Positions 12,540 through 24,774 of a stretch of 64,000 bases of DNA are shown one piece after another; the first letter of the stretch is position 1, and each line of letters begins with the position of its first letter. The translations under genes and the position numbers were made by a program. The DNA comes from Lachnospiraceae bacterium (GTDB lineage Bacteria > Bacillota > Clostridia > Lachnospirales > Lachnospiraceae), in the NCBI GenBank assembly GCA_017936785.1, contig JAGBEV010000053.1:62001-126000 (forward strand), written 5' to 3'. The notes beneath the pieces were generated by a model, which had not been told where the DNA came from, searched no databases, and saw only the letters and a list, made by a program, of their open reading frames with translations.

Positions 12540-13280
12540 TTAAGAATCCAAAAGCCTTTTTAAGAAATACTCCCGGTTATTGATAAACATTTCCGTTACC
12601 TGATAACTCTCCGTATCCTGATACTCACAGGGATGAATGACCCCATCGTCAAAAGACAGGATTTTTGCATCGGAAATGCCGAGCAATATGGGCGAATGAC
12701 TGGCTATGATAAACTGGGAACCCATTTTTGAAAGCCTTTCCACTTCCAATAACAGTGTAAGCTGTCTTTGGGGGGATAATGCCGCTTCCGGCTCATCCAG
12801 AATATAGATTCCGTGATCTGTAAAGTTCCCCTTCACTAACGCCAGAAAACTTTCCCCGTGGGATTGCTCATGAAGAGATTTTCCCCCATATCCGGCATAA
12901 TATATTTCCGCAGGATCATTGTCACGATAATCCTCAGCCTTGCTTGCCACATTATAAAAACTCTCAGCCCGCAGAAAATAGTTCCCCTTCGGTCTTTCAA
13001 AGCCTTTTACCACCGAGACCGCCTCATAGAGCTTTGAGTGGCTTTCATAAGTGGAGAAGCTGTAATTTTTCGTTCCGCCTTCTGCATTAAAACCATAAGC
13101 AACCGCAATTCCTTCAATCAGCGTTGATTTTCCCGAACCGTTTTCGCCTACAAAGAAAGTAATATTATGATCAAAGGTCAGTTCCTTTAGTCCCTTTAAT
13201 GCGGGAATGTCTCTGAGATAACTGTCAGGCTCTATTTTATTCCAATCAATTTTTATCGCTCTGATAAATCTGTCTTCCAT
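12540..13280 (-). CDS. AAA-type predicted ATPase (COG3910 type)
   Basis: 246 residues from ATG 13280. A TTG at 13310 would add ten, but the decayed copy at 22071-22223 also begins at the equivalent Met. Walker A FVGENGSGKST (~42-52), an ABC/SMC-like signature (SHGESFLALV), Walker B GIYILDEPEAAL and IASHSPIL are intact. This is a stand-alone soluble ABC-fold ATPase, related to OLD/RecF-like proteins but lacking a coiled-coil arm or a Toprim domain. Cellular role unknown. First gene of the leftward group with SRPBCC, GNAT and DUF4037. Confidence 0.85.
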   Translation of the reverse strand: MEDRFIRAIKIDWNKIEPDSYLRDIPALKGLKELTFDHNITFFVGENGSGKSTLIEGIAVAYGFNAEGGTKNYSFSTYESHSKLYEAVSVVKGFERPKGNYFLRAESFYNVASKAEDYRDNDPAEIYYAGYGGKSLHEQSHGESFLALVKGNFTDHGIYILDEPEAALSPQRQLTLLLEVERLSKMGSQFIIASHSPILLGISDAKILSFDDGVIHPCEYQDTESYQVTEMFINNREYFLKRLLDS

Positions 13281-13378
13281 AACGCCTCGATCATATAAGT
13301 AATCTGTCAATAATTTTTAATTATACAGTCGTTAAAACTATTTTTAAACATTATATTACATTTCTGCAAAATAGTCAT

Positions 13379-13455: not shown

Positions 13456-15831
13456 TTACTCACTGATATACAATTCTATATACCGCCCCACATTATCCAT
13501 TGTGCTGTCAATGGTTTCTCCATCCTCCATATATGCGGATATTCCTTCTTTGATCATCTGCCTGATCCGGATATCATCGTTTGCAGGTGAATTTAACTGC
13601 CTTAAAACATCCGTATATTCTTCCATCGTTCCTTCATGCCTGAAGTAGATATACCATGCTACACGTTGTCCGCCATAGCTTTCTGTGGCAGCCCCCGGCG
13701 TCGCTCCGCCACGGGTCATATCTTCCTGAAATCCTGCCAAACCATCCAGATTGACAGGGTTTCCCTGTTTATAATCCGGCTCTTCTGAAAAGGTTGTTTT
13801 TTGGATTTCGGTCCCAAACATTTCTCTTATAAAACTTCCTGCCGCTTCTTTTTCATTGCTGTTTGCATTTATTGCAAATGTAACACTTGGTATAAATACA
13901 TTTTTCTCCCCATTGCCGAATATTTTATATTCATAATTGATATTTTCATTATCAACACCAGTTTCTACGCCATTATATTTTATACTGTAAAACTGTGTAA
14001 TACCCTCCGCTGTTTCAAATTGGCACAAGGCTATTTTCTGACCTGAATATTCCTGATTATATAAGGGAAACATCTGCCAGACAGCCTGTGCTTTCCTCGG
14101 GTCCTCTGCAACATCGGATAACCATTGCTGTACCTCCTCCTGGGTAGTGTGCTCCTGCAAGGCATCCCATAATTCCTTAAAGTCTTTCAGGAATGTCTCC
14201 AATTCCTCTTCATGATAATTGCCTTCCGTATCTATCATATCTGTGGAATATACCGGATACAGGATATCAAAAAGGATTTCCCAATTCATTATATTTAGAT
14301 CATTTCCTTCATTGGGTTTATCGCTGTTTCTGATATATTCCGTAAGGGATTTTATATCTGTAATGGAATTGATGTCATCCTTTGATGCAATCAACACCGG
14401 AAACCGGAATTTTGAAGGTATTGCATAAATTCCCTCATCAGTCCTGTATGCGGCAATAATTTCCTCAAGGCAATTGGGGTTTTCTTCTGAAATTTCATCA
14501 TAAACATCAGAAAGCTCCAACAGCACTCCGCTTTCGGTATATTTCCATACATTCAATCCGTCCATAAGGATCACATCCGGTCCTTCTCCTGCCAGCAATT
14601 CTGTATTCAGCGCATTAACCGCATCCTCTACCGATATACCGCTCTCATCATCAATCCCATATCTGTATTCCACAGTAATATTGGGGTGAATACCTTCAAA
14701 TATTCCGATCATTCCTTCCATAAATTCCGCATATCTTAAAGAGTATACGGTTATTGTTGCCTCCGGTTCATCTGCATATGGATTTTCTACAGTCTCTTCC
14801 GATGCTGATATATTTGTTTCCAGTGTATATGGCGCATATGCCGCAATCTGAATACCGGCATCGCTTGAACAGATGGTAACAAACTTTACTTCACTGTTAT
14901 CCTGACTGCTGTCTGCATCAACAATGTAATCATAGATTGTAGTCGAATTTTTTTGGAAATTATTATTCGTATCATGAACCATCTGCACGGATAATGATCC
15001 TTCTGTCACATAGGAATAGATTCCCGTTGCAAGCATGAGATAAATCATCCCACTGCCATCCGCCCCCGGCTTTAACAGATTCTTACAGCTTAAATTATCC
15101 GCTCCAAGAGCTGTAGCCGTTTTGCTGATTTCATCTGACATCACCTGGCTTAAATAGGTATCCTCCCCGGAAAGCTTTCCTGTCTCCCGGTCATATACAT
15201 ATAAGACATTCTCCGTAAGAACCATCAGGCTGTCATCCATTTCACAGAAATCCAGAAGCTCCGAAACATTAACCGAATAAATTTCCTTTCCCGTTATATC
15301 AAACTTATGAATATCCTCATTAACATAAGCATAGATATATTCGCAATCAGGGGAATATTTTAATCCGGATATCCTTTTGTCCCCATAGTCTGCAAGTTCC
15401 TCAGTTTCTGTTTGATCCGGTAAAATCCTCACAACCTTACTTTCATTGATACTGCCATCTGACATTATGCCATATCCAACGATCAGATTATCTGACTCAT
15501 CAATATCCGCTGCAGAAATAAAGGCTCCTTCCGGCAGCAGGCTTTCCGCTTTCATTTCTTCTTCCGTCCAGTTAAGCCCTTCGTCTGTTGAACTGAATTT
15601 TATAATATCCTTACCTTCCTGACTGCCTCCTAAGACAACATATGTTCCTCCCAACTCTTTCAGTGCGAATACTCTCTCAGCCCCATTGATCTGTGAAATC
15701 ACATACTCATTATAGCCCTGCCCTATCTGACTGATTTCATCAGTTTCCTTTCCATTACCGCCGGTTCCACAGCCTGTAAGAAGTGTTACCAGCAGTGTCA
15801 GGCTGATCAATCTTCTAATGAATTTCTGCAT
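13456..15831 (-). CDS. Lipoprotein: Asp-box beta-propeller fused to ABC solute-binding domain
   Basis: 791 residues from ATG 15831 (AGGAGGAGAAAGT directly upstream). The N-terminus is a lipoprotein signal with lipobox LLTGC (Cys21). Residues ~40-340 look like a repeated beta-propeller; SSTDEGLNW (~80-88) is a clear Asp-box (S-x-D-x-G-x-x-W), the sialidase-type turn. From ~360 (ITVYSLRYAEFMEGMIGIFE) to the end is a family-1 extracellular solute-binding domain (LLAGEGPDVILMDGLNVWKY is diagnostic). The usual sugar-binding lipoprotein is ~430 residues, so the propeller is an added module. Last gene of the leftward operon with two sugar-type permeases, an HlyD-like adaptor and a MacB-like protein. 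Ligand unknown; glycan or glycopeptide sensing is a guess. Confidence 0.85.
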   Translation of the reverse strand: MQKFIRRLISLTLLVTLLTGCGTGGNGKETDEISQIGQGYNEYVISQINGAERVFALKELGGTYVVLGGSQEGKDIIKFSSTDEGLNWTEEEMKAESLLPEGAFISAADIDESDNLIVGYGIMSDGSINESKVVRILPDQTETEELADYGDKRISGLKYSPDCEYIYAYVNEDIHKFDITGKEIYSVNVSELLDFCEMDDSLMVLTENVLYVYDRETGKLSGEDTYLSQVMSDEISKTATALGADNLSCKNLLKPGADGSGMIYLMLATGIYSYVTEGSLSVQMVHDTNNNFQKNSTTIYDYIVDADSSQDNSEVKFVTICSSDAGIQIAAYAPYTLETNISASEETVENPYADEPEATITVYSLRYAEFMEGMIGIFEGIHPNITVEYRYGIDDESGISVEDAVNALNTELLAGEGPDVILMDGLNVWKYTESGVLLELSDVYDEISEENPNCLEEIIAAYRTDEGIYAIPSKFRFPVLIASKDDINSITDIKSLTEYIRNSDKPNEGNDLNIMNWEILFDILYPVYSTDMIDTEGNYHEEELETFLKDFKELWDALQEHTTQEEVQQWLSDVAEDPRKAQAVWQMFPLYNQEYSGQKIALCQFETAEGITQFYSIKYNGVETGVDNENINYEYKIFGNGEKNVFIPSVTFAINANSNEKEAAGSFIREMFGTEIQKTTFSEEPDYKQGNPVNLDGLAGFQEDMTRGGATPGAATESYGGQRVAWYIYFRHEGTMEEYTDVLRQLNSPANDDIRIRQMIKEGISAYMEDGETIDSTMDNVGRYIELYISE

Positions 15832-16754
15832 ACTTTCTCCTCCTTTTTTATTCCGCTCCTGTATTTTCCTATATATATTTTCAATCCACATGAATTGACT
15901 CCATATTTTCCGAGCATCTTAACAGCTCTGACTATCATATAGATCAGGGCAATGACCACGATCAGCAGATACCCGGTACATTTCAGTCCATTTTTGACGC
16001 ATAATTGTTCCGGCACCTCTTTATTCTCAAAAAACATATGTTCCAGCCTGTTTTTTACATTCTGAGCATAATCACCCCAGAAATCAAAATCAGACCACTT
16101 AGACGGCGTTTCGATCCAGTTGGCAAACGACCGATAATCCGTCATATAATAGGAATTTCCAGTTATATCGTACGCACTTTCTATTTTCTCTTTATATTGC
16201 CCACGGTAAAGCTCCCCCTCTGTATCCAGGATAATTCCATTTATTTCCCGGTCACTTTCAGACCCCTGTACTGTCTCCGGCTCATGGAGATTGACTACCA
16301 TAAGCGGTATATGGTCATCTACAATTCCCCGCACCACATATTCCTTTCCGGCATAAGTGACCGTTCCTCCCACACTGACGGAAGTTCCAAACATTTCATA
16401 CATCGTATCTTTATCCAGAAGGCAGCCGGCATCATCGCCCTGATACAAAATGTTAAAAGAATGGAAAAGTAAATCCGAATCGCCATCTACAGCAATCACT
16501 GTTACTTTCGCGCTCCGCTGCCCATCCCCGGTTATGGACTGCACCGGATATGTGCTGTAACAGCCGACAATAAATTCCTGATTTTCTTTCATTGTTTCCA
16601 TATCCTGATAAGTAATACCGTCTATACCATCTAGGACCTGACAGCTTTCTTTACCATGATAATAACGCCCCGCCTCTTTTCTTCTGCCCATACACAGCAC
16701 CATGACAAAAAACATGATACAAAAAACAATCCATTTTACGATCCGCTTTTTCAT
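15807..16754 (-). CDS. MacB-like periplasmic-core protein with only two membrane helices
   Basis: About 315 residues from ATG 16754 (GAGGA upstream; a TTG at 16763 is possible). One N-terminal helix (IVKWIVFCIMFFVMVLCM) is followed by an extracytoplasmic domain (~25-270) with the MacB/FtsX periplasmic-core pattern: GITYQDMETMKEN...VTVIAVDGD...VGGTVTYAGKEYVVRGIVDD. One C-terminal helix (GYLLIVVIALIYMIVRAV) and a basic tail complete it. Normal MacB-type permeases have four helices and an FtsX domain; the last two helices are missing here without any sign of a frameshift. Overlaps the binding-protein gene by 25 bp. Role inferred as an extracytoplasmic partner of the adaptor. Confidence 0.65.
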   Translation of the reverse strand: MKKRIVKWIVFCIMFFVMVLCMGRRKEAGRYYHGKESCQVLDGIDGITYQDMETMKENQEFIVGCYSTYPVQSITGDGQRSAKVTVIAVDGDSDLLFHSFNILYQGDDAGCLLDKDTMYEMFGTSVSVGGTVTYAGKEYVVRGIVDDHIPLMVVNLHEPETVQGSESDREINGIILDTEGELYRGQYKEKIESAYDITGNSYYMTDYRSFANWIETPSKWSDFDFWGDYAQNVKNRLEHMFFENKEVPEQLCVKNGLKCTGYLLIVVIALIYMIVRAVKMLGKYGVNSCGLKIYIGKYRSGIKKEEKVCRNSLED

Positions 16755-16759
16755 GATCC

Positions 16760-18229
16760 TCAATCCTCTAATCTTACAACATCACCAGCCTCAATAGATT
16801 TATCACTGCTTACTATAATAAGATCATCCCTGCTTAAAGCACTGCTGCTTACTACTGCATAGATATCATTAGAATCCATGCATGTTACACTTACTTTATC
16901 TGCTACCATCTCTTCTCCCAAAATTCCATTTTTATAACCCACTACAAGTACATAATTTCCTGCGCTGTCTCCTCTCAAAGCCTCGATGGGTATTGTAAGT
17001 CCGTCGCTATCCGATTGATGTGTAAAAACAATGGTTGCTGTCATACCAACACTGTAATCATCTTCCAAAAGCCGGCATCTTACATCATATAACTCAGGAT
17101 TTGCCTCATTCTGTACAACGGATAAAATCGTACCGTTTTCTTCTGTTGTACCTGTTAAAATTCTTGCACTTTCTCCCTCAACGATATACGCAGTCTTATC
17201 GCCGGATACCGTTGCGACCAGCTCATATCCCTGACTGGTATCCACCTGATAAAATGCTGCTGTATTTGGAGAGTATTCGCCTGCCATGACATTTACGGCT
17301 GTTATCTGCCCTATGGAATTTGCAGAAACAACTCCTTCATTTTGCAGCAGTTCATCCAATTCATCTATTTGACTCTGACACTTATCGATTTTTGCACCGA
17401 TATCCATTTCATCATAATCCTTGTTTAGCTGCGCGGTATAAAGTTCCAGCTGCAGTGCCATATCATAACGCTTGGTCTGAAGCATCTCCAGATTATATTT
17501 TACAAGGGGCGTCCCTGCTTCGATCCTACTTCCGCTCTTTACCATAACCTGGTCGATCAAAACTTCCGGATAGATATATACCGGAGCTCCTTTATAATCC
17601 ATCTCATTTTCTGAAACGGTTGCAAAGAGCTCAAATTCCCTGCTGTTATCCGTCTTATAAAATGCAGCTGTTTCCGCAGAATATTCACCTGCCATTACAT
17701 TTACAGCCGTTACCCATCCTGTGGTATCTGAATAAACGATTCCATTGTTTGCTAACAGGCTGTCAAGTTTATTTATTTCACGTTGGCATTTGGTAATGCT
17801 GGCATTCAGCTCCCGCGTATCAAAGATATTTTCCTGCCGGACATTGTAAAGCTCCATCTGCAGGCTTGCTTCATCATACAGGGTCTGCAGCGCATCCGGA
17901 TTATATTTGATAAGGGGCGCGTTTACCTCAACCTTGTCGCCGGTCTTTACCATAACCTCATCAACCAGCACTCCCGGATAAATATAAACCGGGACTTCCT
18001 TTGACACCTCTATGGTTCCCGTGGCAACTACAGTATGCTCAATTTTCTGGGTCGTCGCTTTGGTTGTCTCTATATGAGGTGTAAGCAATGAGCTTGCAAA
18101 TCTGGAAAGAATCGTGCACACGATTACCGCGGTCAAAAAAATCCCTACTGCCTTTATCATACCCGATTTATTATAATTTTTCAGTTTATGCCTGAGCATA
18201 CTGAATTTATCAGCTATTGTCTTTGCCAT
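16760..18229 (-). CDS. HlyD/RND-type membrane-fusion adaptor with internal duplication
   Basis: 489 residues. One N-terminal anchor helix (~24-48) is followed by a barrel/lipoyl module beginning PVYIYPGVLVDEVMVKTGD (80) with a short coiled-coil hairpin (~115-165) and TAVNVMAGEYS (~174). The whole module repeats from 216 (PVYIYPEVLIDQVMVKSG; second AVNVMAGEYS ~311), an exact 136-residue period. A beta-barrel and membrane-proximal domain follow (350-489). GGAGGAG precedes the ATG, which lies 20 bp inside the permease gene. Such adaptors normally serve MacB-like or RND exporters. Here the neighbours are sugar-uptake permeases, which is unusual. Confidence 0.85.
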   Translation of the reverse strand: MAKTIADKFSMLRHKLKNYNKSGMIKAVGIFLTAVIVCTILSRFASSLLTPHIETTKATTQKIEHTVVATGTIEVSKEVPVYIYPGVLVDEVMVKTGDKVEVNAPLIKYNPDALQTLYDEASLQMELYNVRQENIFDTRELNASITKCQREINKLDSLLANNGIVYSDTTGWVTAVNVMAGEYSAETAAFYKTDNSREFELFATVSENEMDYKGAPVYIYPEVLIDQVMVKSGSRIEAGTPLVKYNLEMLQTKRYDMALQLELYTAQLNKDYDEMDIGAKIDKCQSQIDELDELLQNEGVVSANSIGQITAVNVMAGEYSPNTAAFYQVDTSQGYELVATVSGDKTAYIVEGESARILTGTTEENGTILSVVQNEANPELYDVRCRLLEDDYSVGMTATIVFTHQSDSDGLTIPIEALRGDSAGNYVLVVGYKNGILGEEMVADKVSVTCMDSNDIYAVVSSSALSRDDLIIVSSDKSIEAGDVVRLED

Positions 18230-19067
18230 TTCCGGCTCCTCCCTCTATGGATAATCCGCTTATCAGTACATTTCTCCCCAAGATGAATACAAGCAACGCG
18301 GGAATAATGCTAAACAGTGAAAAGGCAAAGGCGCTGCCTATATTCCCACTATTAAATTCCGGAAGATATACCGACAATGTCCACAGGCTTTTTTCCTTAA
18401 TAAATGCAACCGGCTGTTCTATCATGTTCCAGTACTCTAGAAAGCCAAGTATCATGGCAGAGGCAATTCCCTCTCCTGCAATGGGAACTCCTATATTGAG
18501 AAACAATCGAAAACTGCCTGCTCCGTCAAGCTTTGCCGCTTCCATCACTTCCTCCGGCACCTGCTCAAAGGAGTTATACATGATGAATACGGGAAATGTT
18601 GAAAATACCATGGGCAGGATCAGACTGAGATGGGTATTGATCAGCGACATGGAATTTAAAACGATATACTGCGAAACCATCGTTACCTGAAACGGAAGAA
18701 GCATACAGAAAATATAAACAGTGTAGATTACTTTTCCAAACTTCCCCTTGTATCTGGCAAGTCCCCATGCCGCCGGAACAGCAAAAACGAGCTGCCCTAT
18801 GGCTATAGTTGCCACTACCTTCATGGAATTCCAGAATAAAATGTAATATTCAGGGGTATCCAGTAACAGTTCTATTAAATTTTGAAAGGTGGGATACAGT
18901 GGAATGAAACGCCATGTAGCATAACCTTCCCCTTCATCAAAAATCGGACCTATAAGCGACGTCAATTCCGCATTTCCCATGAGACTTCCTATGATTATAA
19001 CAAGAACCGGTAATACGCAGATCATGGCGCCGATGACAGCAATCAGTCTGGCTATCAGTTTCATCAT
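18210..19067 (-). CDS. Carbohydrate ABC permease, MalG type
   Basis: 285 residues from ATG 19067 (AAAGGAGG upstream; overlaps the previous stop as ATGA). The six-helix MalG-type topology and the cytoplasmic EAA loop EAAKLDGAGSFRLFLNIGVPI are intact, so it can contact an ATPase. The expected ATPase is not encoded in the locus, so it may borrow a shared MsmK/MalK-like ATPase from elsewhere (known for Gram-positive sugar transporters; inference here). Overlaps the adaptor gene by 20 bp. Confidence 0.9.
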   Translation of the reverse strand: MMKLIARLIAVIGAMICVLPVLVIIIGSLMGNAELTSLIGPIFDEGEGYATWRFIPLYPTFQNLIELLLDTPEYYILFWNSMKVVATIAIGQLVFAVPAAWGLARYKGKFGKVIYTVYIFCMLLPFQVTMVSQYIVLNSMSLINTHLSLILPMVFSTFPVFIMYNSFEQVPEEVMEAAKLDGAGSFRLFLNIGVPIAGEGIASAMILGFLEYWNMIEQPVAFIKEKSLWTLSVYLPEFNSGNIGSAFAFSLFSIIPALLVFILGRNVLISGLSIEGGAGNGKDNS

Positions 19068-19933
19068 GCGTCCTCCTTTCTGTGCGGCAATATGATAAGT
19101 CTGATCAGCCCCAGGACGGCAAAGAGAAATATTGCCGTAAGGCATGCTGCTGCCGACAGCTTATTGATATCCAGTTTGGAAAACCAGTTATTAAACAAAT
19201 GCTGCAGCATATAAACGCTGTTATCGGGATAATTTCCCACAAGCAGATAGATTTCACGAAACACCTTAAAGGAATTTACAAAAGAAAGCACTGTGATCGT
19301 ATAAGCACCGCCCCTGATATTGGGCAGGGTCATGTTGAAAAACAGCCTTACGCTTCCTGCTCCATCTACCCGCGCCGCCTCATAAATGTCCTTTGGAATC
19401 ATCTCCAGCACCGTCAGCCAGATTAGCATGTCATAGCCCATATTTTTCCATAAATATGTACCGATGAGAAGATACAAGGAATTCTGACCTGTCAGGAAAC
19501 TGACCGGCTCCATCTTTAGCATAACCCTGATACCATTGATGATCCCCGCATCATCAAAAAGCATTTTCCATACGGTAACTACCGAATTGGAGGGAATCGC
19601 CATAGGTACCAGAAATGCAAACCGGATCAGCTTACTGTTCATATTGTTGACAATATACGCCATACACAGGGAAATAACGATCAGCAGCGGAAGGCTTATC
19701 ATATCAAATAGCAGCGTATTTTTTACCGCCAGCCTGAAAGCATCATTTGTAAACACTGTGTTATAATTATCAAAACCCACAAAATCCGATGAGATTCCGC
19801 CAAAAAAGGATCTTTTTACCACATCCAGCAATGGGATTATGAGAAATACAAGTATTCCCACAGCACTGGGAAGCACAAAAAAAAGAAAATGATAGTTTCT
19901 ATTCACAAAGTTTTTATATTTCACCCATCCCAC
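19064..19933 (-). CDS. Sugar ABC permease, MalF type
   Basis: Up to 289 residues. The only starts available are GTG codons (19933, or 19924 with AGGTGG 5 nt before it). Six membrane helices and the EAA loop EAARVDGAGSVRLFFNMTLPNI mark a binding-protein-dependent sugar permease. First gene of the leftward operon. A TATAAT -10 (complement of 19962-19967) lies 30 bp upstream, with phased TCTAA repeats just beyond it. Works with the downstream MalG-type permease and the solute-binding lipoprotein. Confidence 0.9.
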   Translation of the reverse strand: MGWVKYKNFVNRNYHFLFFVLPSAVGILVFLIIPLLDVVKRSFFGGISSDFVGFDNYNTVFTNDAFRLAVKNTLLFDMISLPLLIVISLCMAYIVNNMNSKLIRFAFLVPMAIPSNSVVTVWKMLFDDAGIINGIRVMLKMEPVSFLTGQNSLYLLIGTYLWKNMGYDMLIWLTVLEMIPKDIYEAARVDGAGSVRLFFNMTLPNIRGGAYTITVLSFVNSFKVFREIYLLVGNYPDNSVYMLQHLFNNWFSKLDINKLSAAACLTAIFLFAVLGLIRLIILPHRKEDA

Positions 19934-19961
19934 CTGCCATACGGTTCTTTTTCATATAACA

Positions 19962-20027
19962 ATTATAACTTTCTTTGATTTTTCATATTTCTAATTCTTA
20001 TCTAACTTTTATCTAATTTTTGTCTAA
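19962..20027. promoter_or_regulatory. Four 11-bp-phased TCTAA direct repeats and divergent promoter region
   Basis: TCTAA begins at 19990, 20001, 20012 and 20023, an exact 11-bp period. This is the usual geometry of OmpR/PhoB-type response-regulator sites. For the leftward permease operon a good -10 TATAAT (complement of 19962-19967) has no recognisable -35; the repeat block starts just where the -35 would be, as at activator-dependent promoters. The regulator encoded by the adjacent rightward gene is the likely binder. Confidence 0.8.
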
Positions 20028-20087
20028 TTTGAATAATCTGATGTTTTTCAAAGGATAATGTGATATTATAAGCGCGGAGGAAGCCTC

Positions 20088-20771
20088 ATGAAATTACTAT
20101 TGATTGATGATGATGTTCAGCTTTGCCATATACTCAAAAATAAATTTGACAAAGAAAACATCGACTCTGTTATTTGTCATACAGGAAAAGATGGCATTTC
20201 AAAAGCCCTTTCGGTCAAATTTGATATTATCATTCTGGATTGTATGCTGCCCGATATGAGCGGAATTGATATCCTGAAAAAATTTCTTTTTGATAAGATC
20301 TCTGTTCCCGTGATCATGCTTACGGCACTGGGAACATTACAGGATAAGCTTAACGGTTTGGGAAACGGCGCTGACGATTATATTGTCAAGCCTTTTGAAT
20401 TTGATGAACTGATGGCACGCATCCATTCCGTACTAAGACGCACAGACCCTATTGCAAACACCGATTATCACTACGGTGATATATCTTATAACATAGAAAG
20501 CCATATACTACAGTGCGGGAAAGAAGCCGTTCAGCTTTCCAAAAGAGAGTCATTGGTATTTGAAGTGTTAGTAAAAGAAGCCGGCAAAGTGATTTCCAAA
20601 GATACGATCATTAACAATGTCTGGGGTGAAAACTCCTATATTGATGACGGAAATCTGGGCAACTATATTTATTTTATCAGGAACCGTTTAAAAACCATAC
20701 ACAGCAAAGTTACTGTTAAAACAGTTCATGGCATAGGCTATGAGCTCTCATTCGGTAATGCAAATGATTAA
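20088..20771 (+). CDS. OmpR/PhoB-family response regulator
   Basis: 227 residues. The receiver domain (1-115) has the acidic pocket IDDD (6-9), phospho-acceptor Asp51 in LDCMLPDMSG, the LTA switch residue and the conserved Lys in VKPF. The C-terminal winged helix (~128-225) ends TVKTVHGIGYEL. A GCGGAGGAAGCCTC ribosome site precedes the start. Overlaps the kinase gene by 8 bp. Divergent from the hybrid transporter operon, with phased repeats between them, so it probably switches that operon on. Confidence 0.93.
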   Translation: MKLLLIDDDVQLCHILKNKFDKENIDSVICHTGKDGISKALSVKFDIIILDCMLPDMSGIDILKKFLFDKISVPVIMLTALGTLQDKLNGLGNGADDYIVKPFEFDELMARIHSVLRRTDPIANTDYHYGDISYNIESHILQCGKEAVQLSKRESLVFEVLVKEAGKVISKDTIINNVWGENSYIDDGNLGNYIYFIRNRLKTIHSKVTVKTVHGIGYELSFGNAND

Positions 20772-22035
20772 AAGCTTACAAATTCGTCTAACCATATATC
20801 TGTCTGTTTTTTTAACGATCATCATGGTCGCAGTATGTGCTATTTATACCTATATCACTTCTGCAAATATCAGCAATCGAAACAGGCTGGAATATGAAAA
20901 TAATATTATCTATTTCTATTCTTATTTATACCAGAGCGATATTATAAATTTCTCCAATATATCCCAATTTACAGACAAGGGATTTTATGTTGAACTGTTA
21001 AGCGAAAATTATGCTCAAAAATACCCGACAGCTTCCATACCAGATGCCGAGACAATCATTGACAGGCTGGATATTACCTCAACCTCTGAATATTGGAAAA
21101 ATTATTATGATGCAGTCCAGCAAAAAGTCCCTGTACATTCCGAATCTACATTCCAGTATGAGAAGGTTGAATATTGGATAAGCTATGCTGTTATTCAAAA
21201 CCATGAAAAATCATATACGGTTATTCTGCTATATTCCACTTTAAATGAAAAGCTGGAAATCCGCCGCCTTTGTATGAAATTTTCACTGGTTTGTCTGTGT
21301 GCAACGATCGTTCTTTTTATCATATCTTTTTATTTTGTAAGAAAAGTCCTCATTCCTGTAAAAGAAGCTTACAACAAACAGGAAGAATTCATTGCTGTTG
21401 CCTCTCATGAACTAAGGTCTCCCCTTACAGTTATTAAGGCAAGCCTCTCTGCAATGCCAAATTCCGGCAGCGAAGAATTGGAACATTATAAATCCATTGC
21501 AAATGCAGAATGTTCGCGTATGACAGATTTGATCAACGATATGTTACTGCTGGCAAACATGAAAATAAACAAAAAGAAAAACGCATTTCAGGACTGCGAT
21601 CCATCTGATATCATCATTAATTGTTATAATCGTTTTGAGGAACTTGTTCTGGGCAAAGGACTTAAGTTCCATGTTTCATTTCCCGAACAGCCTTTGAAGC
21701 ATTATAAACTGGATAAAGACCGCATTACCCAGCTTCTGGTCATCCTTTTAGATAATGCCCTAAGTTATACGGAATCAGGAACGATCACCCTTTCCGCATA
21801 TGAGGAGCATGACAGGCTCCGCCTTTCCGTATCAGATACCGGCAAAGGCATTCCTGATTCTATGAAAAAAAGAATATTTGACAAATTTTTCTCCGCCGAT
21901 CAGTCACATTCCCAAAACGAGCATTACGGTCTGGGGCTTAGTATTGCCAAAGAAATTGCCGCCCTGCATCATGCGGTCATTGAGGTTACCGATAACGAAG
22001 GCGGCGGAAGCGTATTTACTATATTATTTCCATAG
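20764..22035 (+). CDS. Sensor histidine kinase
   Basis: 423 residues from ATG 20764 (the frame is open upstream inside the regulator gene, but coupling favours this start). Two membrane helices (~10-32 and ~178-200) enclose an extracytoplasmic sensor of ~145 residues with no recognised fold. The H-box ASHELRSPLTVIKASLS, N-box LLVILLDNALSYT, G1 SDTGKGIP and G2 GLGLSIAKEIA are intact. No clear HAMP domain. Partner of the upstream regulator. The signal is probably an extracellular compound handled by the divergent transporter. Confidence 0.92.
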   Translation: MIKSLQIRLTIYLSVFLTIIMVAVCAIYTYITSANISNRNRLEYENNIIYFYSYLYQSDIINFSNISQFTDKGFYVELLSENYAQKYPTASIPDAETIIDRLDITSTSEYWKNYYDAVQQKVPVHSESTFQYEKVEYWISYAVIQNHEKSYTVILLYSTLNEKLEIRRLCMKFSLVCLCATIVLFIISFYFVRKVLIPVKEAYNKQEEFIAVASHELRSPLTVIKASLSAMPNSGSEELEHYKSIANAECSRMTDLINDMLLLANMKINKKKNAFQDCDPSDIIINCYNRFEELVLGKGLKFHVSFPEQPLKHYKLDKDRITQLLVILLDNALSYTESGTITLSAYEEHDRLRLSVSDTGKGIPDSMKKRIFDKFFSADQSHSQNEHYGLGLSIAKEIAALHHAVIEVTDNEGGGSVFTILFP

Positions 22036-22978: not shown

Positions 22979-23839
22979 CTATTTATCGTGATTTTTCCCG
23001 GAAATATTCAGACATGCCAATCCAAAGAAAACTACTGCGACTGCCGTCATGATTCCAATACTTGCAGCCATGGAAACCTCTGTATTCCCAAATATATAGA
23101 TGATGCCCAGTTCTTCCTTCAATTCTGTCACAACAGAAACCGGAACCCCTTCAAAAGCTTCTTCCATAACCGGTCCCATCATAATATTCCGAAAAATCAG
23201 AGCGCCATGGGAAACAGGAAATAACTTTACGATCCATTGTACCCCTTCAGGATAAGAGCCGATAGGCAGATAAATTCCCGTTAAGAATCCGATCAAAGTG
23301 CCCAGCACAATATTTGCCGTTGTATAGGCATTGATACTTTGAAATAAAGAAACCAAAAACAGTGCAATGGACGTATTCATAAAGGTATTCAGCAAAATAA
23401 TGCCCAAAGTCCTCACTATGTTATGTAAACTCATCAATTCCCCGCCATTGACAGTAACATAAATTTCTGCTGCTGCCAGTGCGATCACTGACATAACAAC
23501 ACCCACTGCATATGCGCTGAGCATATAACCGCCTGCGATCTGCCACTTTTTGACCGGTGCCACAAAAAAATCCTTTTCAATCCGGTCTGCCCTGTCCTTT
23601 ACCATGGTTCCAAGCATACCCAAGGTTGTTGTCATACTGGTGATTGCCAAGACTCCTGCCATGACCCAGTTATCCATCATTTCTTCGGCACGCTCAAATT
23701 CCTTCAGCCCGTTCGTCCACACGTCTCCCAAAAATAACACATAAAGTCCTATGACAATAAACACTGCCAAAAGAGAAAAAATAACCGAGGATCTATCCCT
23801 TAAATATAATTTCAGATTTCTTTTTGCAAATGCGATCAT
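22979..23839 (-). CDS. ABC-2 type permease (LytTR-linked efflux)
   Basis: 286 residues with six membrane helices and the ABC2_membrane layout: MIAFAKRNLKLYLRDRSSVIFSLLAVFIV at the N-terminus, KDRADRIEKDFFVAPVKKWQI in the first loop and IYLPIGSYPEGVQWIVKLFPVSHGA late. This matches daunorubicin/multidrug permeases. Overlaps the ATPase gene by 4 bp. Expected to export a toxic compound or peptide; substrate unknown. Confidence 0.88.
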   Translation of the reverse strand: MIAFAKRNLKLYLRDRSSVIFSLLAVFIVIGLYVLFLGDVWTNGLKEFERAEEMMDNWVMAGVLAITSMTTTLGMLGTMVKDRADRIEKDFFVAPVKKWQIAGGYMLSAYAVGVVMSVIALAAAEIYVTVNGGELMSLHNIVRTLGIILLNTFMNTSIALFLVSLFQSINAYTTANIVLGTLIGFLTGIYLPIGSYPEGVQWIVKLFPVSHGALIFRNIMMGPVMEEAFEGVPVSVVTELKEELGIIYIFGNTEVSMAASIGIMTAVAVVFFGLACLNISGKNHDK

Positions 23840-24774
23840 TCCCGTATCTCCTTTCCTGTTATGCCCAAAAATACGTCATCCATAGAGCCTTTTACCACCG
23901 TAAATCCTTCCAGAAAGGGCTCTGTAAGTTTCAAGATTGGCAATGCCTCCATAGTGGTCTGTAAATCCACTTCCAACAGCTCTTCTTTTTCCGTAAAACC
24001 GATTTTTCCTTTTGTAAATATCTCCTTTAACTTCTTTTTATTCTCTTCACCGCGGCACATAAGCCGCAGCTTATCTCTGGCATATTTTTCCTTTAAATCC
24101 AACGGAGTTCCTGCTGCCGCTACCATGCCGTGATCCACAACGACACAATAATCGGCATCCTCTGCCTCTTCCATGTAATGGGTAGTCAGAAACACTGTCA
24201 TTCCCTGTTCTTTTTGCAACTTTTTGATGGTATCCCAGACATTCCTTCTGGTCTGCGGATCAAGCCCTGTGGTGGGTTCATCCAAAAACAGGATCTTTGG
24301 CGTATGGAGAAGGGCTCTTGCGATATCTGCCCGTCTTCTTTGTCCTCCTGACAGCTTTCCGTATGGGCGTTTTAAGAAACTGCCCATTTCCGTAACATCA
24401 CAGGCTTTTTTCACAGCCTCTTTCAATTCCTTACCCTTCAACCCATAAAAGCTGCCCCGGATCTTTAAGTTTTCCTCCACAGTAAGAAGCCCGTCTAAAA
24501 GACTTTCCTGAAACACCACGCCAATACTATCCCGGATTTCTCCATCCTGTTTTCCCAATTCATATCCGTTTACAAAAACCTCTCCTTTATCCGGTTTTAA
24601 AAATGTACAGATAGCATTGATGGTCGTGGACTTCCCGGCGCCGTTTGGTCCTAAAAAAGCAAACAACTTTCCCGGTTCCACATAGAAACTGATATCCTTT
24701 ACTGCCTGCACATTGCCATAGGATTTGGCTAAATGATTTACCTCAATGATTTTCGCTGATTTTTTCTCTTCCAT
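23836..24774 (-). CDS. ABC transporter ATP-binding protein (DrrA-like)
   Basis: 312 residues. Walker A GPNGAGKST, Q-loop VFQESLLDGLLTVEENL, signature LSGGQRRRADIARALL, Walker B ILFLDEPTTGLDPQTRRNVW and H-loop TTHYMEEAEDADY. The C-terminal domain (~230-312) ends TEPFLEGFTVVKGSMDDVFLGITG, the DrrA-type tail. Three LytTR-type repeats lie 70-115 bp upstream, so the promoter is probably driven by the LytTR regulator at 25490-25927. Confidence 0.92.
   Translation of the reverse strand: MEEKKSAKIIEVNHLAKSYGNVQAVKDISFYVEPGKLFAFLGPNGAGKSTTINAICTFLKPDKGEVFVNGYELGKQDGEIRDSIGVVFQESLLDGLLTVEENLKIRGSFYGLKGKELKEAVKKACDVTEMGSFLKRPYGKLSGGQRRRADIARALLHTPKILFLDEPTTGLDPQTRRNVWDTIKKLQKEQGMTVFLTTHYMEEAEDADYCVVVDHGMVAAAGTPLDLKEKYARDKLRLMCRGEENKKKLKEIFTKGKIGFTEKEELLEVDLQTTMEALPILKLTEPFLEGFTVVKGSMDDVFLGITGKEIRE

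Follow-up and report, generated by a model that had tools for sequence, protein, structure and literature searches.

The stretch analysed here (the window) comprises 64,000 nucleotides from a Lachnospiraceae bacterium (GenBank assembly GCA_017936785.1, contig JAGBEV010000053.1, positions 62,001 to 126,000), in which a leftward operon of five genes lies beside a divergent two-component pair (13456-22035). A first-pass annotation had described this locus as an uptake system sharing an operon with parts of an export pump, and all seven of its open reading frames (ORFs) were found at the same coordinates. Scans of the window ORFs with Pfam and NCBIfam profiles assigned to the reverse strand a MalF/UgpA-type CUT1 permease (19064-19933; BPD_transp_1, 1.8e-12) and a MalG/UgpE-type CUT1 permease (18210-19145; BPD_transp_1, 2.1e-10; clade assigned by tree), both above cut-off, together with a HlyD/MacA-like adaptor (16760-18229; TIGR01730 RND_mfp, 3.3e-15, and HlyD_D23, 5e-6, neither reaching its cut-off), a MacB-like periplasmic-core protein (15807-16763; MacB_PCD, E 0.0023, 18.7 bits, short of the Pfam cut-off of 27) and a solute-binding lipoprotein (SBP; 13456-15891; SBP_bac_8, 6e-12, and SBP_bac_1, 1.6e-7, each above cut-off). 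The likely start of MalG is 19067, in an ATGA overlap with the malF stop, instead of 19145; that of SBP is 15831, with the lipobox LLTGC. On the forward strand are genes for an OmpR/PhoB-family response regulator (RR; 20088-20771; Response_reg, 7.1e-23; Trans_reg_C, 1e-15) and a sensor histidine kinase (HK; 20740-22035; HisKA, HATPase_c), the latter with two transmembrane (TM) helices flanking an extracytoplasmic domain. The control region between the two transcription units (19934-20087, assigned to neither strand) contains four TCTAA-type direct repeats with 11-bp spacing that are candidate response-regulator sites.

The operon contains the features of a CUT1 importer, namely two BPD_transp_1 permeases of MalF and MalG type, EAA motifs in both, and a MalE-type (SBP_bac_1/8) lipoprotein. 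The EAA motif is the docking site for the ATPase in such importers, and its loop is intact in MalF (EAARVDGAG) and MalG (EAAKLDGAG), as judged from the sequences and the clade alignments. The closest solved relatives of MalF were a sugar permease (7cad), MalF and AlgM1, and that of the MalG clade profile was AlgM2 (6.1e-30). A model of SBP predicts a MalE-type fold for the C-terminal domain (residues ~378-811), preceded by a beta-rich, putatively propeller-like domain (~64-356), a description based on strands in the model and on profile matches to WD40, PQQ, and designed propellers.

The remaining two proteins resemble components of MacAB pumps. The window adaptor has one N-terminal TM helix, and its family profile matches RND-type and MacA adaptors; the HlyD/MacA-like adaptor of MacAB pumps was thus recognized at the level of the family. 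Its barrel-sandwich/hairpin module is duplicated in tandem (50.8% identity over 124 amino acids, E 6.6e-46), and among 134 other adaptors tested a single, weak internal repeat was found. The MacB-like protein consists of a TM helix, the periplasmic core domain, a WSDFDFW motif, and a second TM helix, with no ATPase domain. It shows two hydrophobic peaks, lacking the middle TM helices of many relatives, and hence does not have the four-TM topology of MacB; a crude scan of 93 family members gave one to six peaks, with four in 30 of them. The weak MacB_PCD call was upheld because an AlphaFold2 model (mean pLDDT 80) matches solved structures of MacB, YknZ, and Spr0695, and because 22 of 29 family members, the window protein among them, match the profile at E 0.01 or better; a MacB periplasmic-core fold is therefore predicted. 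Two relatives have unusual gene structures: one MacB-like ORF (L069:9090-10763, + strand) runs on into a HAD-type hydrolase domain, and that of L149 is split into three fragments.

The distribution of the gene set was surveyed in two samplings. An adaptor search in 200 genomes of the family gave matches at E 0.001 in 66, the window genome included, many of them to generic adaptors. The neighborhoods of 38 adaptor places among the matches listed, including a second, divergent copy of the system in the window genome (C43, L048), contained this type of MalG in 34 cases, 30 of these also having a MacB-like gene. As for the other four, L051 was a contig end, L070 held only a short adaptor piece, and in L075 and L076 the adaptor stood beside an ATPase of 231 or 272 amino acids. 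In the second sampling, loci were fetched by MalG and the adaptor was ignored at fetching; the MalG profile (A4) had itself been built from adaptor-linked loci, and these sets therefore lean towards the adaptor-linked MalG type. An adaptor was present in 78 of the best 80 of 554 contig loci obtained in this way, the other two ending 205 and 440 bases past MalG. These 80 loci were mainly from Lachnospiraceae and also from Neglectibacter, Sedimentibacter, Bacilliculturomica, Negativibacillus, and others. Used as the query against the same contig collection, the adaptor returned no confirmed relatives, although the MalG alignment did retrieve them.

At class level, 42 of 291 genomes had a MalG match at 1e-50. 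An adaptor accompanied 26 of 28 MalGs scoring above 225 bits, the other two lying 258 and 145 bases from a contig end, and 1 of 17 (L203) at or below 225 bits, where four of the 17 came from the window genome and some lay at stretch ends. This cut-off was picked after the rows had been inspected; the MalG tree described below is independent of it. The class-level match rows numbered 46, of which 37 were read with their neighbors, two rows of the window genome and G022:C28 were read separately, and G420, G445, G257, G284, G333, and G398 were left out. Loci were counted as untruncated if no stretch end lay within 1.5 kb of MalG, and genes as near if on the same strand within 4.5 kb. After removal of repeats, MalG had fetched 106 distinct loci, 89 of them untruncated; adaptor and MalF were present in all 89, SBP (by profile) in 80, the MacB-like gene in 54, and both RR and HK within 9 kb in 50. 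Addition of the adaptor-selected loci raised these numbers to 138 distinct and 121 untruncated loci (adaptor, 121; MalF, 120; SBP, 109; MacB-like, 82; RR and HK within 9 kb, 69). The linkage of adaptor to permeases proposed in the first-pass annotation was therefore borne out in every untruncated locus, and its union of importer and export-pump parts in one operon is real and recurs across Clostridia. The MacB-like gene does not always travel with them, and an obligatory partnership was rejected.

At phylum level, 5 of 299 genomes had a MalG match at 1e-62: the window genome, one of the same family, and three outside the class. In the two of these three that were read (G624 and G634; L271 and L272), SBP, MalF, MalG, adaptor, MacB-like gene, and an ATPase were all present. 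The system is common in the sampled class and less frequent across the wider phylum, and it extends beyond Clostridia. Contigs titled Muribaculaceae (L100) and Desulfovibrio (L140) also carry the operon, for which a binning error or transfer seems likelier than a true host, and three loci (L106, L122, and L147) have three SBP genes of ~800 amino acids alongside a single permease pair. No PADLOC match was obtained at 0.001.

A maximum-likelihood tree of 120 MalG rows, restricted to proteins longer than 240 amino acids and taking the 40 even-numbered loci of the 80 contig loci, splits at a branch with 100/99 support into 103 rows and 17 rows of ordinary MalG. The larger side, 35 rows of which (window included) had been selected via the adaptor and 68 via MalG, has an adaptor in 99 rows, and the other 4 are truncated. 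On the ordinary side, which includes three MalGs from the window genome itself, none of the 17 has one; two MacB-like labels there (L058 and L218) belong to an adjoining adaptor operon. Several deep branches on the adaptor side carry the MacB-like gene, and of the 27 adaptor rows lacking it, 19 fall in one Lachnospiraceae subclade; for these reasons the gene was probably ancestral and later lost, mainly in that subclade. Mean column identity, in alignments of differing membership, was 53% for MalF, 47% for MalG, 22% for the adaptor, 23 to 27% for SBP, and 16 to 17% for the MacB-like protein. Since adaptor, SBP, and MacB-like protein are less conserved than the permeases, the outer parts seem to diverge fast.

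In an Oscillospiraceae metagenome-assembled genome (MAG), a single frame of 724 amino acids (L154:6861-9035, + strand) encodes a MacB-like region (residues 10-342, 134 bits) followed by MalF (439-722, 426 bits), and in L094, L120, and L129 malF comes right after the MacB-like gene and overlaps with it. The fusion and the overlapping genes support, short of proof, a contact between MacB-like protein and MalF.

No ABC ATPase is encoded in 13456-22035 according to the window ORF list; the nearest ABC-like ORF on one side (12540-13310) matches AAA_21 and AAA_15, with ABC_tran at 25.6 bits, barely above the cut-off of 25. A MalK-type ATPase (ABC_tran with OB_MalK and/or TOBE_2) adjoins the operon in six relatives, following MalG in L120 (TOBE_2 only) and following or overlapping the MacB-like gene in L144, L149, L227, L271, and L272. 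Two further ABC ORFs were noted, one 316 bases past MalG in L154 and one beside the adaptor in L220; that of L220 lacks OB_MalK and TOBE_2. A genome-wide search located OB_MalK and TOBE_2 together in two proteins of the window organism, one of them truncated at the end of its contig, and placed neither domain on the window contig. The first-pass annotation was thus correct that the window operon has no nucleotide-binding subunit, but this is not strange in itself, given the ATPases of the relatives and of the window genome. Loci in which adaptor and MacB-like gene adjoin their own ATPase and FtsX permease, which it had named as the sign of chance adjacency, were largely missing: among 91 MalG-linked loci with a MacB-like gene, eight ABC ORFs lay within 3 kb of it, and the sole one of MacB-type size (L066, 233 amino acids) was 1.2 kb away, beside a second adaptor; FtsX was not searched separately. 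No MacB-type ATPase fused to or beside the MacB-like protein was found, and the scanned ATPases of relatives that adjoin the MacB-like gene are of MalK type. Because the EAA motifs are kept, a MalK-type ATPase stands beside the operon in relatives, and no MacB-type ATPase is near the MacB-like genes beyond L066, the simplest reading is that a single MalK-type motor acts on MalF-MalG. Sharing of ATPases between such importers is established (PMC5730181; PMC9601137), and the window importer would be powered in trans by a MalK-type ATPase encoded elsewhere.

Among solved structures, the closest to the SBP family is CbpC, of "transporter C" of Clostridium (Acetivibrio) thermocellum, which is described in print as a putative cellodextrin transporter. 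The CbpC stretch matches genome G790 at 100%, and the locus (L269) holds on one strand CbpC, an AAA/MoxR-like ORF, MalF, MalG (306 bits), adaptor, and a MacB_PCD protein. It belongs to the same clade and combines the same five components, but differs from the window in that CbpC, at 460 amino acids, is too short for the propeller-like domain, the extra ORF (L269:8429-9280, - strand) lies between cbpC and malF, and no RR or HK was found in the stretch read. The adaptor of this genome is read in two overlapping frames (L269:5134-6487, - strand). The Fig. 1 legend of PMC9601137 names an acrA gene, with the cluster unspecified. The system is therefore not wholly undescribed, as the first-pass annotation had supposed, since this locus is a studied member. 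The combination itself was not found described: the listed titles and abstract beginnings of open-licence literature gave no paper on an importer joined to adaptor and MacB-like protein, which does not imply its absence from print. What is new is recognition of the family and of its composition; no single part is new.

The divergent kinase and regulator probably control the operon. Fifty-seven kinases scoring above 350 bits, the window kinase included, align over their full length, with a mean top-residue fraction of 0.39 in the extracytoplasmic stretch versus 0.58 in the kinase part. OmpR/PhoB-type regulators bind direct repeats of the kind seen in the window, and in the gap between regulator and operon, period-11 repeats reached 5 of 6 matched columns in three copies at 12 of 48 loci. 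In 20 block shuffles, the mean was 0.45 loci and the maximum was 2, and periods 8 to 10 and 12 to 14 gave 0 to 2 loci; the paralogue in the window genome (L048) does not reach 5 of 6. The period-11 repeats are thus candidate response-regulator sites.

We favor, at somewhat better than even chance, the reading that the operon encodes a CUT1-type importer (MalF-MalG with a large SBP) that has stably acquired a MacA/HlyD-like adaptor and an ancestral MacB-like protein, the whole acting as one envelope machine. Its kinase and regulator would switch the operon on. MalF-MalG would be energized by a MalK-type ATPase, whose gene adjoins the operon in some relatives and would act in trans in the window organism. 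On the outer face of the permeases, in the Gram-positive "periplasm," the adaptor and MacB-like protein would probably form a sleeve or a platform for docking. Via this sleeve, SBP might then hand over to the permease a ligand that is bulky or associated with the wall and is most likely a glycan. A more specific form, which we put forward tentatively, is a tripartite importer. Here a ring of MacA-like adaptors would join the MacB-like core in the wall zone as a conduit or a chamber for capture, through which a large ligand would travel inward, opposite to the known tripartite pumps, and the rapid divergence of the outer parts would reflect adaptation to different ligands.

Several observations weigh against an importer of this kind. 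A MacB-like gene went undetected in 35 of the 89 MalG-fetched untruncated loci (39 of all 121). The physical complex is, like the direction of transport and the ligand class, deduced, and the MacB-like/MalF fusion is one ORF of one MAG. Among 800 flanking ORFs from 129 loci, no recurrent partner was found: the largest cluster (35 loci) consisted of mixed ABC ATPases and the next spanned 8 loci, leaving no catabolic partner to hint at the ligand, with the limit that the clusters were unannotated and rare enzymes are possible. Passages of a 2022 study of C. thermocellum report that CbpC bound none of the sugars tested, that an additional loop blocks its pocket, and that growth on glucose, cellobiose, and Avicel was normal in a mutant of transporter C (PMC9601137). 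The literature is contradictory on sugar binding, however: a table in a 2024 review gives, from an earlier study, the opposite result of sub-micromolar binding of glucose and cellodextrins, and the same review credits transporter C with a contribution to cellodextrin uptake (PMC11212667). Changes in expression of the operon on sugars are mentioned in two other papers (PMC8303734; PMC7471329). In view of the conflicting binding reports and the normal growth of the mutant, it is doubtful that the system serves plain nutrient uptake.

Other known systems share some of these features. CUT1 importers with a shared ATPase (those dependent on MsmX in B. subtilis, and C. thermocellum transporter B) likewise have SBP and two permeases, with the MalK-type ATPase encoded outside the operon; to our knowledge they have no adaptor or MacB-like protein, and their regulators differ. 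The alginate importer AlgM1M2SS, which imports a polysaccharide, contains AlgM2, the solved structure that the MalG profile matches best, but AlgM1 is a slightly poorer fit to the MalF profile than other permeases are, and we know of no adaptor or MacB-like protein in that system. In the Gram-positive MacAB-like pumps YknXYZ and Spr0693-0695, as presented in parts of PMC5985334, MacB is an energized permease with its own ATPase; the window system lacks such an ATPase and has a CUT1 permease pair and SBP. By sequence, the system appears importer-like at the core, with some components in common with MacAB pumps, but the ATPase sets it apart from them.

A serious rival, to which we assign a low probability, is a transport-linked sensing device in which the kinase learns of a ligand or of the envelope state through SBP, adaptor, and MacB-like protein, import being secondary. 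This reading is supported by the presence of both RR and HK no more than 9 kb away in 69 of 121 untruncated loci (50 of 89 MalG-fetched), by an extracytoplasmic kinase stretch that can be aligned across all 57 kinases, by the missing partner among flanking clusters, and by the reported blocked pocket and absent sugar binding of CbpC and normal growth of the mutant (PMC9601137). In the remaining 52 of 121 loci, though, no RR or HK was found within 9 kb in the fetched stretch. A device for sensing alone would also have no obvious use for EAA motifs or for a MalK-type ATPase, yet the motifs are kept, as is the ATPase in six relatives. Transport operons, moreover, commonly have a two-component system as a neighbor. 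The first-pass annotation had offered both an importer with an adaptor and a sensing device; we favor the importer, while the two are inseparable by sequence alone.

It is improbable, in our estimate, that the system is instead an outward or extracytoplasmic clearing machine resembling MacAB/YknXYZ, in which MalF-MalG and a MalK-type ATPase replace the MacB motor and ligand is moved off the membrane. An SBP lipoprotein with CUT1 permeases and a MalK-type ATPase is the hallmark of import, and the middle TM helices, which flank the ATPase-coupling loop of MacB, are missing from the window MacB-like protein; these features stand against the MacA and MacB types of the two outer proteins and against the view, in parts of PMC5985334, that Gram-positive MacAB-type systems guard against peptides, probably from outside the membrane. 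Slightly less probable still are two separate machines, co-transcribed because shared regulation is convenient: an ordinary importer on the one hand and, on the other, an adaptor with MacB-like protein serving another exporter. The permeases do persist where the MacB-like gene is absent, and the same family has adaptors beside ATPases of 231 to 272 amino acids (L066, L075, and L076). A second, weaker adaptor match also lies upstream of the main operon in L090:2-3282, L110:1-2595, and L133:76-2055, followed in L090 and L110 by a weak MacB-like match. Yet the adaptor is never missing from untruncated loci of this MalG clade and absent from all 17 ordinary MalGs, MacB-like protein and MalF are fused in L154, and the scanned ATPases directly adjoining the MacB-like gene are of MalK type. 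Chance adjacency or an assembly artefact, for which the estimated contamination of 8.77% in the window's draft genome might speak, has a negligible probability, being refuted by the MalG tree and the adaptor in 89 of 89 MalG-fetched loci, with the same gene set in many genomes, named isolates and single-contig genomes included.

Adaptors in Gram-positive bacteria are treated, in parts of PMC5985334, as parts of export or protection systems. The role of adaptors in bacteria that lack an outer membrane is not settled, and a clade-wide union of adaptor and importer would, if true, widen the functions ascribed to them; it might also explain why CbpC does not behave like a normal sugar-binding protein. 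The recurring gene set suggests an overlooked kind of envelope machine over a chance neighborhood, and points to a ligand or signal handled by many gut Lachnospiraceae. C. thermocellum is the organism in which the system is directly testable, as an intron insertion in its transporter C operon has already been made (PMC9601137). Past the kinase in the window, a reverse-strand segment (22979-24774) encodes an ABC-2 type ATPase (23836-24774) and permease pair, named from sequence.

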